DNA from: Lysinibacillus contaminans
GTDB lineage: Bacteria; Bacillota; Bacilli; Bacillales_A; Planococcaceae
Assembly (NCBI RefSeq): GCF_001278945.1
Contig: NZ_LGRV01000003.1
Coordinates: 1,736,001 to 1,800,000 of the forward strand
Direction: 5' to 3'
DNA: 64,000 nt
In this document: one piece after another, positions 6,827 through 15,660 of the stretch
Layout of the letters: each line of letters opens with the position of its first letter
Position numbering within the stretch: position 1 is the first letter of the stretch
Made by a program: the position numbers and the translations under genes
Notes under the pieces: model-generated
What the model was told of the DNA's origin: nothing
The model's database searches: none
Seen by the model: the letters and a program-made list of their open reading frames with translations, nothing else

Positions 6827-6922
6827 TTGCTCCAAATTTTTTTATTTCCGTTTCCTCTGATAGTCCTCTGATAATTACTCGTTATGCTCATTATTAGAGA
6901 CACTAACGTGGGAGGATTATTT

Positions 6923-8205
6923 ATGAATAAAGAAATATCAATATGGCGCAATGGCAATTTTATTAAATTCTTTTCTGCTAATACTTTAGCCAACTTAGGA
7001 AACTGGTTTGATTTTGTTGGGGTACTTATCTTATTCAGGTATACATGGAAGGCTGACCCGATGCTGATTGCTCTAATCCCTATCATGTATGCCATTCCTA
7101 GTATACTTTTAGGACAATTTGCAGGCGTATTTGCAGACCGAAGAAATAAGCGAAAAATCCTTATCTATTCTAACTGGTTTCGTGCAGTGTCAACTTTATT
7201 GCTTGTCTTTACACCTACACCCTGCTTGCTTTGCCAATCCTGTTTTTACGAAACACTGCGGGAGTGATAAGCCTTCCTGCACAGCAGGGATTGATGAGAA
7301 ATATTGTTGATGAAAAAAACATCATGCAAGCAATTACTATTAATGGAAGTCTGTTTCAATTGGTTAAAGTGATTGGCCCGCTAATGGGAGGTTCAGTGGC
7401 AGGAATATTTTCTCCAAATGTTTCCATTTCATTAAATGCTATAGCTTTCATGATTTCTGGAATACTCCTTACACGAATCAAGGTACAAGAAATCGAAACA
7501 AGTGTAGAAATAGAAGCTACACAATCAGGGTTTCTAAGTTCTTGGAAGGAAGGTTGGCAGATTGTTTTAAATAGCAAAACTCTTTTGGCAAGTATCATAT
7601 TTGGGATATTCAGTGTCCTCACAATACAAATGATCGACGCACAGATTGTAACTTTGTTCAGTGAAGTGTTCCCTAACAAACCTGGGTTTACCGGTTGGGC
7701 TATTTCAGCTATTGGCATCGGATCGCTCTTTGTGGTCATACTTCTAAACAAACTTAAAAAAATCTCAAAATTTGGTTGGTTTTTCGGTACCGGGAGCCTT
7801 CTAATCGGTGTCATGACTGTAGGTTTTGGATTCCTATCGGACTACAATTTCATAGTACTTGCAATCTTTCTTTCTATTATTGGCGGGATTGGAAATGGGT
7901 TAACTTTTACTGCCGTAAATTACATTATTCAAACTGAACCACCCAAGGAAGCTATAGGAAGGGTTACCGGTATAATAGATTCCTTAATGAGTATCCTTTT
8001 TATTGCCGGACCGCTTCTCGGCGGACTATTAATAACACAATTAGGGGTACTAACCGCCTTTAAAACAATCGGTCTGGCACTATCCATTATTGGTATGGCT
8101 GGTATATTCCTGCAAAATCTCATCTGGAAGCAAAACAAATCTGCAAAAGTACAAATTGAAGTTAAAGTTAAAGTTAAAGTTAAAGAGGGAAATGAATCGT
8201 GTTGA
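6923..8205 (+). pseudogene. MFS transporter, split by a frameshift
   Basis: The ATG at 6923 (GGAGG 7 nt upstream) starts MNKEISIWRNGNFIKFF, with the family motif GQFAGVFADRRNKRKI at about residue 80. The reading frame is lost close to 7205-7222, within the sequence for FTPTP. The neighbouring frame then continues with LPILFLRNTAGVISLPAQQG to 8205. Joined, the product would be about 427 residues with 12 membrane segments, normal for an MFS exporter of the macrolide/tetracycline type. As written, the gene yields a truncated peptide of about 114 residues. A sequencing error cannot be excluded, because no homopolymer or slippery heptamer is at the break. Confidence 0.8.
8161..8184 (+). repeat. 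Hexanucleotide microsatellite in the MFS C-terminus
   Basis: Four perfect copies of GTTAAA, encoding Val-Lys repeats just before the stop of the broken MFS gene. The unit length is a multiple of three, so slippage would change the length of the basic tail without shifting the frame. Confidence 0.9.
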
Positions 8206-8454
8206 AGTGTGGGAATGTTTTCAATAATATTGAAAATGACCTGTACCGGATACAAACACAATTCAGACAATCAACTATTTTACTTTTTAAACTAACTTCA
8301 ACCAAGCGACAGCTTCACAATGTTTGGAGTGTATGAACACGGTTAGTTAATTATACAGATCTGGCTCCTATTAAGCGTGGTTTTAGGAGGTATTTAATTA
8401 TTGAAAGGTAACCTTTCATAAAAGAATGTTATTCAATAATATGACCCTATAATG

Positions 8455-8495
8455 AAAACGAGCGCTGATTCTTGTTACAGAATCGCGCCCGTTTT
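8455..8495. terminator. Intrinsic terminator of the lipoprotein gene
   Basis: Stem with inner arms GATTC and GAATC and an outer GCGC pair, flanked by AAAACG on one side and CGTTTT on the other. It can act in both directions. Its right flank (8487-8500) carries GCCCGTTTTGCGGA, the best second match in the window to the predicted target of the IS110 element located 500 bp away. Confidence 0.85.
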
Positions 8496-8514
8496 GCGGA
8501 TATATGAAAATTGA

Positions 8515-8925
8515 TTAACCCTCAACAAGCCCATAGTATTTATAAAGTTTATCTTCTGATTCTACGAGTAAAATTGGTCCTCCAATTTCTTCTTTTTCTT
8601 TAACCGAAAAGACTTTTGCACCAACAGGCAATTTGTTCGACATTTCGTCTTCAAAGTTTGTATCAGTATCGTTTTTTGTTTTTATTTCTCCTACCTGCTC
8701 GTCTTTTGTTAATGTTGTTTCTTCAACCCAATCAATTCCAGTCTGATAAATCACTCCATTGAACTGAAATATATCGGCTTCAGGATCTAATTTTAAAATC
8801 TCTTCCGCATTAGGATTTTCAGGTGTATAAATCTCTACTTTACCTTTATCCGATGAATTAGAACATCCAACAGCAGTTAATAAAACGAAAATAACCAAAC
8901 CAAAAAATAATCTTGACACTTTCAC
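8515..8925 (-). CDS. Small lipoprotein of unknown function
   Basis: A 136-residue protein with a type II signal peptide: MKVSRLFFGLVIFVLL, then the lipobox TAVGC with the lipidated Cys at about residue 21. A charged mature domain contains NPNAEEILKLDPEADIFQFNGVIY. It would be anchored on the outer face of the membrane. The start is a GTG with an AAGGAGGG site 6 nt upstream. No enzymatic motif is seen. Small lipoproteins of this kind are common in Bacillales, with unknown roles. The IS110 element sits just upstream of its promoter region. Confidence 0.82.
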   Translation of the reverse strand: MKVSRLFFGLVIFVLLTAVGCSNSSDKGKVEIYTPENPNAEEILKLDPEADIFQFNGVIYQTGIDWVEETTLTKDEQVGEIKTKNDTDTNFEDEMSNKLPVGAKVFSVKEKEEIGGPILLVESEDKLYKYYGLVEG

Positions 8926-9002
8926 GTTATCCCTCCTTGGATTGTTAGACGGATAAAGGTTAATTAAGTTACCTATTTGTTCTGTTAAATGGCCCGATCG
9001 TA

Positions 9003-9190
9003 ATATGAGGTTAGCCAGATTTTTCTGGTTGACCTTTTTCTTTTAGGTCTTATTATAACGGTAGTCGGGGTAGAACGTCTGGCCCGTGGGACTTGATCCC
9101 GTCCGCAAAACTGTTCACCCCCTACTTGTATAAACATGTTTCGAGCTGGTTGGGACAAGGATCCCGTTTAACAAGCGAACCTATGACATT
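9003..9190 (+). ncRNA. Candidate bridge RNA of the IS110 element
   Basis: The non-coding left end folds into three parts. The first is a 5' hairpin (9008-9035, 11 bp with two wobble pairs, T4 loop). Loop A (9061-9125) has an outer stem GTAG/CTAC, GGGGT/ACCCC, AAC/GTT and an inner GGGA/TCCC helix. Loop B (9138-9180) has an outer GTT-t-CG/CG-AAC stem and a second GGGA/TCCC helix. Loop A carries TGGCCCG on its left strand, equal to the left flank. Its right strand GTCCGCAAAAC is complementary to the right flank GTTTTGTGG with one G-T wobble. Loop B carries AGCTGG(TT), equal to the end of the element at 10610-10615. This matches target- and donor-binding loops of the IS621-type bridge RNA. The right donor guide pairs less well. 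Expression is not shown. Confidence 0.65.
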
Positions 9191-9247
9191 ACAAGCAGCT
9201 TTAGGGGTTACCGACGAATTTAGTTTTCTTAAGGAGGAGATTTGATT

Positions 9248-10486
9248 ATGAATCCAGTCGTAGGTCTGGATGTTTCAAAAGGAGAAAGTCAGGTTCAAGC
9301 CTTTTTAGATAAAGGCAAACCATATCGTAAGAGCTTTAGTATTAAACATACTCTTGATGGTTTGGATGGTTTATTAGGATTTCTAAGGGATATAGAGAAA
9401 GTGGCTGATGGTAAGCAACCTTCGGTTATTTTAGAATCTACAGGTCAATATCATATGCCTATCATTCAATTTTTGGAGGAGCAACAATACGTCTATATTA
9501 TTGTAAACCCACTTATCTCTCATCGTGCTAGAAGTACAAATTTACGCAAAGTAAAGACCGATGCCATTGATGCCTATCATCTATGTGAACTATATTACAA
9601 GGAAGAGTTAGAACCATATAAAAAAAGAGGCATACAACTCTTAAATCTTCGTAATCTCACTAGACAACAAGAAACCGTATCAAGTACGGCTGCACAAACA
9701 AAGTTACAGCTACAATCAATATTAGATCAGGTATTTCCTGAATATAGAGGTGTCTTTGGGAATCTCTACTCAAAAATCTCGTTACAGATTCTATCAATCT
9801 TCCCAACCTCCAAAGAGGTTTTAAGTGTTAACGAATTAGATCTTACTAATAAAATTGCGGAATTATGTACAACCCGTTCAGAAAAATGGGCAAAAGAAAA
9901 AGCAATTAAATTGAGAGAAGCTGCATTACGTAATCCATTTCAAAACAACTTATACCAAAGCCATATCTTTAACCTAAGAATGTTTATTAACATTGTTCTT
10001 CAATATCAAGAGCATCTATCAAAGTTAGCAGCAGAAATAGATGCCCTCGCTAAAGAAATTGAAGAATATGAAATAATCCAGTCTATCCCTGGAGTTGGAG
10101 AAAAGATTGCGGCAACAATCATCTCCGAAATAGGAGAGATAGAGCGGTTTAATCATCCTAAAAAGCTAGTAGCATTCGCTGGGATAGATCCTAGCGTTTA
10201 CTCTTCTGGTAGGTTTACTGCTTCAATAAATCGCATAACCAAAAGAGGTTCTAGCAGGTTAAGACAAGCGTTGTTTATGGCTGTACAATGCGGTATAAGA
10301 GATGCACGTAAGCAAAAAACAAGTGATGAAATAATCCCTAGAAATAAGAAATTAAGAGAGTTCTACGATAAAAAACGCGAAGAAGGAAAACCTTTTAGAG
10401 TAGCAATAATTGCTTGTGCTAATAAGCTTTTACATTGGATTTATGCCCTACTTAAAAGGAAGATGACCTTCCAAAATACAGATTAA
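9248..10486 (+). CDS. IS110-family transposase (DEDD recombinase)
   Basis: A protein of 412 residues counted from the ATG at 9248, 8 nt after AAGGAGGAG; a TTG six bases earlier is too close to that site. The N-terminal RuvC-like DEDD domain shows GLDVSKGES, then VILESTGQYH, then KVKTDAIDAYHLCEL, giving the Asp, Glu, Asp, Asp ligands. The C-terminal Tnp20 domain shows IIQSIPGVGEKIAATIISEIG, then FAGIDPSVYSSGRF with the conserved catalytic Ser region, and KRGSSRLRQAL. Length and domain order are intact, so the element may be active. In this family the enzyme is directed by the element's own bridge RNA, which is the likely role of the region directly upstream. Confidence 0.95.
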   Translation: MNPVVGLDVSKGESQVQAFLDKGKPYRKSFSIKHTLDGLDGLLGFLRDIEKVADGKQPSVILESTGQYHMPIIQFLEEQQYVYIIVNPLISHRARSTNLRKVKTDAIDAYHLCELYYKEELEPYKKRGIQLLNLRNLTRQQETVSSTAAQTKLQLQSILDQVFPEYRGVFGNLYSKISLQILSIFPTSKEVLSVNELDLTNKIAELCTTRSEKWAKEKAIKLREAALRNPFQNNLYQSHIFNLRMFINIVLQYQEHLSKLAAEIDALAKEIEEYEIIQSIPGVGEKIAATIISEIGEIERFNHPKKLVAFAGIDPSVYSSGRFTASINRITKRGSSRLRQALFMAVQCGIRDARKQKTSDEIIPRNKKLREFYDKKREEGKPFRVAIIACANKLLHWIYALLKRKMTFQNTD

Positions 10487-10515
10487 AAAGAAATAACTAA
10501 TTACATTAAATAAAA

Positions 10516-10536
10516 CCTTCCAATTTTATAGGAAGG
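10516..10536. terminator. Hairpin in the right end of the IS110 element
   Basis: CCTTCC and GGAAGG arms around a 9-nt A/T loop, 30 bp after the transposase stop. It probably terminates the transposase mRNA. The following DNA to 10864 is A/T-rich and shows no gene. Confidence 0.65.
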
Positions 10537-10864
10537 CTTATTTGGTATACCCTTTTTTAGTATATCATGTAGGTTTTAATTTTTTTATTGAAAAATCTTG
10601 ACAACTATTAGCTGGTTTTGTGGTACAAAAAAATTTGCAATACTAGATTTTTGATCCGACCTTATTATAAAAAATCATACTTTTTTATTAATGATAGAAC
10701 TTTCTTTCAAAGCCAAAAAGGACTGTACATATTTGATGTGTATAATATCTCCAATCCTTTTATTTTCATATACTAAAGCATTATGACCCTAAGATAATAT
10801 CAATATAGGATTTTTAATCAAACTTTATTATAAATGATCAATCTTTTTTATAAAACTATAATAA

Positions 10865-15419: not shown

Positions 15420-15660
15420 CAATAGATCTTATAAAGTGAATTTGAATCTGAACACTTTAAAAGCACAACAAATCACATTTCCAAACGTGGCTCAACTAGG
15501 ATTCGTCACATGCTTTACACAGCCGTTCGCTGTTCGATTCGAGATAGTCGTATAAAGTAGCCATTATAACTTGTGTTAATAAGCTTTCACACTGAATTTA
15601 TGCACTATTAAAAACAAAAAAAACGTTCCAAGAAACTATTTAGCAACAGCATTTTCAAAC

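Follow-up and report, generated by a model that had tools for sequence, protein, structure and literature searches.

The locus analysed here raises the question of whether the leader of an IS110 insertion sequence encodes a bridge RNA whose target and donor guides can be read directly from the flanks of the element. A preliminary description answered yes, following the logic of IS621, and that answer is borne out by flank covariation, helix covariation and the catalytic residues of the recombinase. The window is a stretch of 64,000 nt (G000:C1:1736001-1800000) in a host genome of 4.1 Mb, and its features are collected in Table 1. The 1620 bases at 8999-10618 match exactly at two further places in the same genome, which gives three copies in total. 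All three have the same inner flanks, TGGCCCG on the left and GGTTTTGT on the right (TTTTGT), and because the outer flanks differ, this agreement is not chance; the base directly after TGGCCCG is A, A and T in the three copies. The span 8990-10623, first given for the element, does hold an IS110 element but includes target bases, and the element itself runs from ∼8999 to ∼10618. Its layout is that of the IS110 group, with ∼250 bp to the left of the ATG versus 132 bp to the right of the ORF, and Pfam identifies the protein as an IS110 recombinase by both PF01548 (E = 1.6e-31) and PF02371 (E = 1.7e-24). The best solved relatives are IS621 (E = 2.8e-21) and the ISCro4 transposase (E = 4.6e-21), the latter being a solved IS110 recombinase with likeness at the protein level. 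All five catalytic residues of IS621, which passages of PMC11208158 number D11, E60, D102, D105 and S241, align with identical residues (D10, E65, D107, D110 and S322), and S322 sits in YSSG opposite YESG of IS621 in the alignment; the solved chain of IS621 has 328 aa, whereas the present recombinase has 414 aa. The nearest named relatives of the protein, at 95–96% identity, are from Ureibacillus, Rummeliibacillus and Lysinibacillus, although for a mobile element such kinship is a poor guide to its host.

Table 1. Features of the IS110 element and its target site (window coordinates)
Feature	Position	Strand	Basis or remark
Left half of target, positions 1-9 (TGGCCCG + A8T9), host-supplied	8990..8998	+	Common to three copies; word in uninterrupted repeats
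IS110 element	8999..10618	+	Top-strand register, right donor CGTAATAT... to left donor AGCTGGT + core TT; one-T ambiguity
5′ stem-loop GGTTAGCCAG/CTGGTTGACC	9009..9034	+	98.0% of cells paired in 40 leaders; double-sided change at one pair
Predicted bridge-RNA promoter TTGACC-16-TATTAT	9029..9056	+	TTGA[CA]C-16-TA[T/A][T/G]AT in 68/72 leaders (not deduplicated)
Target-binding loop, outer stem GGGGTAGAAC/GTTCACCCC, inner helix 9088-9091/9097-9100	9067..9121	+	Covariation
Left target guide TGGCCCGT (target positions 1-8)	9080..9087	+	Own-flank match across family
Right target guide CCGCAAA (pairs positions 14-8)	9103..9109	+	Right-flank covariation
Putative handshake bases AC facing donor T7 and G6	9110-9111	+	Analogy with passages of PMC11208158
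Donor-binding loop, outer stem CTTGTA/TACAAG, inner helix 9152-9155/9162-9165	9125..9195	+	Covariation
Left donor guide AGCTGGTT = left donor positions 1-8 (10610-10617)	9144..9151	+	Sequence identity
Right donor guide GCGAA, pairs TTCG(T) with G-T wobble	9175..9179	+	Sequence
Handshake base C9180, facing target G7	9180	+	Adjoins right donor guide
IS110 recombinase ORF (414 aa)	9242-10486, ATG at 9248	+	Pfam, solved relatives, catalytic residues
TTGACA, candidate junction promoter	10598..10603	+	17 nt from TAATAT (9001-9006) in predicted circle
Left donor AGCTGGT + donor core TT (positions 1-9)	10610..10618	+	GTTT at positions 6-9 in 78/80 right ends
Right half of target from position 10 (TGTGGTACA)	10619..10627	+	Pairs right target guide; homologous empty sites L119, L120, L160

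The leader has the organization of the IS621 RNA, with a 5′ stem-loop, a target loop and a donor loop, and its left guides likewise read the bottom strand and its right guides the top strand. A structure of 36 pairs, derived from the sequence of the window copy, was paired in 97.9% of cells in 40 of 54 distinct leaders, and sliding the helix partners lowered pairing to 37–47%. Folding of related leaders had been proposed as a check, and the helices do covary: double-sided changes were present at 12 of the 36 pairs versus 4.3 in shuffles (0/500 shuffles reach the observed number), with four pairs in the outer stem and one in the inner helix of the target loop, and the same numbers in the donor loop. 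No Rfam 15 family matched up to E = 1 within 8800-10800. In the target loop, the left strand reads TGGCCCG at 9080-9086 followed by T9087, the inner helix is GGGA/TCCC and the right strand is GTCCGCAAAAC at 9101-9111, the loop words being TGGCCCGT and CCGCAAAAC; TGGCCCGT precedes one GGGA/TCCC helix of the leader and AGCTGGTT precedes the second. As claimed from the first inspection, the left flank at 8990-8996 is exactly TGGCCCG, the right flank pairs with the right strand with one wobble (at positions 10-14), and AGCTGG of the donor loop (9144-9149) equals the right end of the element at 10610-10615. The right donor guide had been considered the weak point with about five of eight matches, and is better than thought when read as GCGAA at 9175-9179. 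Across 79 leaders, located by the anchor [AG]GCTGG which fixes the first six bases, the left donor guide was GGCTGGTT in 69 and AGCTGGTT in 10. The right donor guide region read CGAAGC in 40/77 and CGAACC in 37/77 leaders, part of the counted word belonging to the anchor AACAAGCGA by which these leaders were located, and was not found in six rows. The donor loop matches both element ends. Donor loops and donor ends are nearly invariant, and target loops are highly variable.

To compare guides with flanks, we kept 80 of 519 relatives found, and together with the own copies these gave 83 rows; the target loop was readable in 78. The covariation set comprised 64 distinct rows in which neither a guide nor a flank was missing; the 19 of 83 rows dropped were two duplicates and 17 that lacked a flank or loop, were cut at a contig end or contained N. 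With a score that permits a one-base shift (used by 14 rows), the 16 left-guide classes matched their own flanks at 6.16/7, and reassigned classes gave 3.46 with a maximum of 4.80, so that 0/10,000 reached the observed match; without the shift, the values were 5.27 versus 3.14, again with 0/10,000. By row, positions 1-7 of the left guide matched the own flank with a mean of 6.33 over the 64 rows (7/7 in 37 rows, 6 in 15, 5 in 9, 4 in 2 and 3 in 1), and at least five of seven matched in 61/64, the non-matching rows being L020, L056 and L076. The 18 right-guide classes, scored over positions 10-15, reached 4.31/6 versus 3.07 for reassigned classes (maximum 3.91, 0/10,000 reach). The match by row was moderate here, with a mean of 4.25/6, 3/6 in 10 rows and 2/6 in one; examples of guide and flank are TCTTC/TCTTC in L087, TCTTC/TCTTG in L089 and CAGTG/CAGGA in L076. 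A failure of related loops to covary with their flanks had been named as one observation that would count against bridge-RNA guidance, and the loops do covary.

These matches could instead reflect chance or common ancestry, with similar leaders happening into similar repeats, since guides and flanks are short GC-rich words of few classes, the rows are related and class reassignment removes relatedness only in part. Nevertheless no reassignment reached the observed match, and covariation extends to a single base, as L072 has GCACCT in both guide and flank and L070 has GCACCC in both (guide position 6, C/T). Moreover, close relatives have been retargeted: L013, whose protein is 96% identical to that of the window, differs from it at 8/203 leader bases, three of them within guides and one beside the left guide, and is flanked by GCGCCC where the window element is flanked by TGGCCC. 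The guide GGGTGC, the reverse complement of GCACCC, is present in four rows, with a 7/7 flank match in L089 and poorer matches in L069, L078 and L087, and such guides with matching flanks suggest that the GCACCC-type repeat is used from the opposite strand. We therefore regard chance or shared descent as extremely improbable. The same pair of relatives bears on the proposal that the protein alone sets specificity, with the leader serving merely as a regulatory 5′ UTR. Leader helices could control expression, as is reported for ISPpu9, but the 96% identical protein of L013 uses another site and follows its own leader, and for this proposal we see next to no chance. In the reading that we prefer, the leader very probably makes a landing-site guide RNA as in IS621, and the guides track the sites used in each host (TGGCCC, GCGCCC, GCACCC, GCCTCC, CTGCCC and GGGTGC); because guides vary in step with host sites, the element appears to follow host repeats by rewriting few guide bases.

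The empty site had been predicted to run from TGGCCCG straight into TTTTGTGG, which proved one T too long, as uninterrupted words are shorter. The target site is read as TGGCCCG[A/T]T followed by TGTTG, and one T of the right end is donor DNA. In 951 kb of DNA, uninterrupted TGGCCCG was followed by ATTG in 25 cases, TTTG in 2, ATA in 1 and ATG in 1 (n = 29, one ATTG, in L014, being the left end of an element), and uninterrupted GCGCCCG by ATTG in 32, TTTG in 4, ATTA in 4 and TTTTG in 1 (n = 41). The sole TTTTG word is the window's own repeat at ∼8485-8499, and its homolog in L098 reads TTTG. After GCACCCG we found TTA in 17, TTTG in 4, ATA in 3, and TTG, ATTA and ATTG in one case each (n = 27), and never TTTA. 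An A-form pattern permitting either length gave 192 matches in 29/32 same-genus genomes and 0 in the backward control, and the short version was present in all 150 among the matches listed, of 192. The CTGCCC class has two loop lengths, and its 18 uninterrupted words neither support nor oppose the register. Homologous empty sites were seen in three genomes of other species, namely G021 (TGGTCCGTTTGTTG) and G068 (TGGCTCGATTCTTG) for the window copy and G030 (TGACCTATTTGTTG) for copy B. These sites (L119, L120 and L160) fit the register with one to three differences in positions 1-9, and a strain-level empty allele was not found. Among four loci homologous to the left flank of the window copy, only L119 and L120 are empty; L117 and L118, like a second homologous stretch in the genome of the window, diverge at the site, just past the TGG word, and are uninformative. 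The automatic alignment of L119 was shifted upstream by a one-base indel and is gapless from TGG onward. The left flank of copy A is part of a repeat with intact relatives reading GGCCCG[A/T]TTG (L173, L177, L178 and L180), and outside this genome no full-length homolog of the flank of copy A was found.

From these sequences, the target would be cut between LT(1-7)-[A/T]T and RT, such that the left junction keeps target positions 1-9 and the right junction reads AGCTGGT-TT followed by RT. By sequence, a cut after position 9 is indistinguishable from a cut one T earlier. We prefer the cut after position 9 because it places T9 in both partners and gives an 8-nt left donor guide, both as in IS621 (passages of PMC11208158), and because it allows a position-7 handshake in both loops, with A facing donor T7 and the donor-loop base C facing target G7 in 28/29 rows of the window's clade. 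G takes this place in the donor loop of the other clade, where target position 7 is mostly G as well (19/33 rows), and the two do not pair. A GT core common to both ends was also considered and was rejected, as inserted sites are one T longer than uninterrupted repeats; the core [A/T]T was adopted because it aligns inserted and intact sites without gaps. The CT core of IS621 was not found at either end: the donor core is TT, and the target core is TT in 55/69 and AT in 14/69 left ends, T9 being part of the left-end search anchor in this count. According to PMC11208158, GT, AT and TT cores support IS621 recombination, and thus a TT donor core with an [A/T]T target core is a variant, not an exclusion. 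Under the preferred register, the predicted circle junction is AGCTGGTTTCGTAATA with three T, AGCTGGTTCGTAATA would not fit, and TGGCCCGTTTGTGG is the predicted recombination target of this bridge RNA.

The register also allows the inheritance of the junctions to be read from genomes. At right ends, where the search anchor stopped at position 5 and positions 6-9 were free to vary, these positions read GTTT in 78/80 cases, ATTT in one (L061) and GGTT in one (L074). Left ends read CGTT in 34, CGAT in 11, CTTT in 6 and other words in the remainder, with GTTT only in L020, and position 7 was G in 53, T in 9, C in 4 and A in 3 (n = 69); these word counts are not deduplicated. For IS621, PMC11208158 places the top-strand cut behind position 9 and the bottom-strand cut at a distance of four bases, and its Discussion considers an exchange of bottom strands and repair possible. 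With such staggered cuts, positions 6-9 are expected to form a mismatch patch where donor and target differ, and the donor has G6 T7 T8 T9, whereas the target mostly has C6 G7 [A/T]8 T9. As the right junction is donor-type and the left junction target-like, the top-strand version nearly always wins. Whether the genomic copies thereby record a resolution favouring the exchanged top strand is, on this evidence, an evenly balanced matter; if general, natural IS110 insertions would be resolved by copying or repair from the exchanged top strand. In L074, the target-loop bases facing donor positions 6-9 are also GGTT, a matching handshake change, and as a single covarying element this is thin evidence for the handshake, since G7 could also be target-derived. 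L020:1740-1775 has a donor-like left flank (CTATTAGCTGGTT) with no element upstream. A circle or tandem junction (AGCTGGTTCG) was considered for L020 and rejected because the upstream sequence is not an element end, and possibly a donor-like sequence was used as target.

The preliminary description further held that the site was a rho-independent terminator, entered between stem and U-tract. Family sites offer some points in its favour: in 5/66 of them a hairpin has the target word as its 3′ arm (L024, L040, L067, L076 and L091, only L076 having a long GC-rich stem), at least five T occupy positions 8-15 in 22/66, and a terminator-like fold is formed by the GCGCCCGTTTT hairpin of the window itself, near 8455-8495. 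At the window site, however, the fold has no terminator stem, and a GC stem ending at the insertion point with a U-tract was not found. In the reconstructed sites, the 3′ arm holds 1/8 word bases for the window copy, 4/8 for copy A and 1/8 for copy B. An automated terminator scan, which sees the occupied site, returned none at the junctions. One T of TTTT is donor-derived, so part of the supposed U-tract was made by the insertion. The terminator claim for the window site is unsupported. Furthermore, the word lies in the loop in two of three folded uninterrupted repeats, L122 and L197, and not in L208; L197 is a perfect 14-bp palindrome (−20.1 kcal/mol), L122 is weaker and L208 is not palindromic. 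Arm pairing was 7.58 versus 7.33 for reassigned flanks (sd 0.12; maximum of 300 = 7.77), a weak excess, and hence palindromic arms rest on examples and not on this statistic. We thus consider a terminator target very unlikely and read the window site as a small dispersed repeat. A dispersed repeat at 8407-8499 has many partial copies in same-genus genomes and, in the window, ends in a terminator-like hairpin, GCGCCCGTTTTGCGG, the last nine bases of which, GTTTTGCGG, are the full right-guide complement of the IS110 element.

The conserved TTGACC-16-TATTAT or a close variant inside the leaders, which distinguishes them from IS621, suggests that the RNA may start near 9062, and a promoter scan of the whole window found 12 sites versus 10.1 expected, which is not above chance. 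The 5′ stem-loop followed by a T-run at 9007-9044 scores as terminator-like, and its 3′ arm holds the -35 box of this internal promoter-like site; stem-loop and T-run may insulate the RNA against outside transcription. A circular form of the element is predicted by analogy with IS621. A promoter rebuilt in IS110 circles is described in PMC11208160, and the possible circle-junction promoter here is a further likeness to IS621: right ends carried TTGACA in 81 and TTGACT in 1 of 82, and the junction spacer would be 17 or 18 nt with three T, or 16 or 17 nt with two T.

To the left of the element, two ORFs that overlap in different reading frames (6884-8205) resemble a single membrane transporter broken by a frameshift. 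Remnants of related elements were also observed. Positions 15432-15637 of the window hold a degenerate IS110 fragment that is interrupted by several stops and is related to the recombinase of the element. Leader-only matches to the same element type (L094:4761-4945, L226, L227, L228, L230, L231, L232, L233, L235 and L237) have 73–98% identity and scattered breakpoints. In the stretch that was read, neither a recombinase gene nor a right end could be recognised beside them, and they look like remnants in decay. In L017:1660-1770, the left end of a related element lies inside the apparent start of another IS110 recombinase gene (CCAGTGGTAGGTCTGGATG), and this insertion site does not match the L017 guide.

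Other elements share parts of this behaviour. IS621 also inserts into dispersed repeats, but targets REP, and the elements studied here use other repeats. ISPa11, ISPpu9, ISPpu10 and other REP-targeting IS110 elements also choose repeated extragenic palindromes (PMC1525189), in other hosts and other repeats, and the portion of that account available to us does not mention a guide RNA. The seekRNAs of IS1111 and IS110 types (PMC11187229) are likewise noncoding-region RNA guides with natural reprogramming between relatives; the excerpt seen describes subterminal inverted repeats for the IS1111 type and has ISEc21 as its IS110 case. The literature retrieved includes the founding papers and REP-targeting precedents, and among its titles and abstract openings none names this clade. 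Thousands of IS110 elements were mined in the founding paper (PMC11208160), and members of the clade may be in its tables.

Taken together, we consider it highly likely that the locus holds a working-looking IS110-group insertion sequence with a leader-encoded bridge RNA, repeat targeting and top-strand exchange. In the mechanism that we propose, the ∼200-nt leader of this element from a Bacillaceae-type host would encode a two-loop bridge RNA. The RNA-loaded recombinase would pair its target loop with the dispersed repeat TGGCCCG-[A/T]T-TGTTG; its donor loop would pair with AGCTGGT-TT-CGTAATA, the ends that are joined in the circular form. Both top strands would then be cut after position 9 and exchanged, leaving target 1-9 plus the element at the left junction and donor 1-9 plus target 10 onward at the right junction. 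Element ends, guides, guide/flank and helix covariation, catalytic residues and uninterrupted target words are read from the DNA, and RNA expression, the circle and the strand order of cutting are carried over from IS621.

The element is a well-supported natural ortholog of a known bridge-RNA system, and its interest lies in the data set. Bridge recombinases are under development for programmable DNA insertion, and the two founding papers derive their guide rules largely from IS621. The present clade is a compact natural data set, with a different core and with one scaffold type that carries 16 left-guide classes and 18 right-guide classes, in which retargeting by few bases has occurred naturally and junction inheritance is readable from genomes. 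It suggests that, in Bacillaceae, IS110 elements of this kind follow dispersed repeats, as others follow REP elsewhere.
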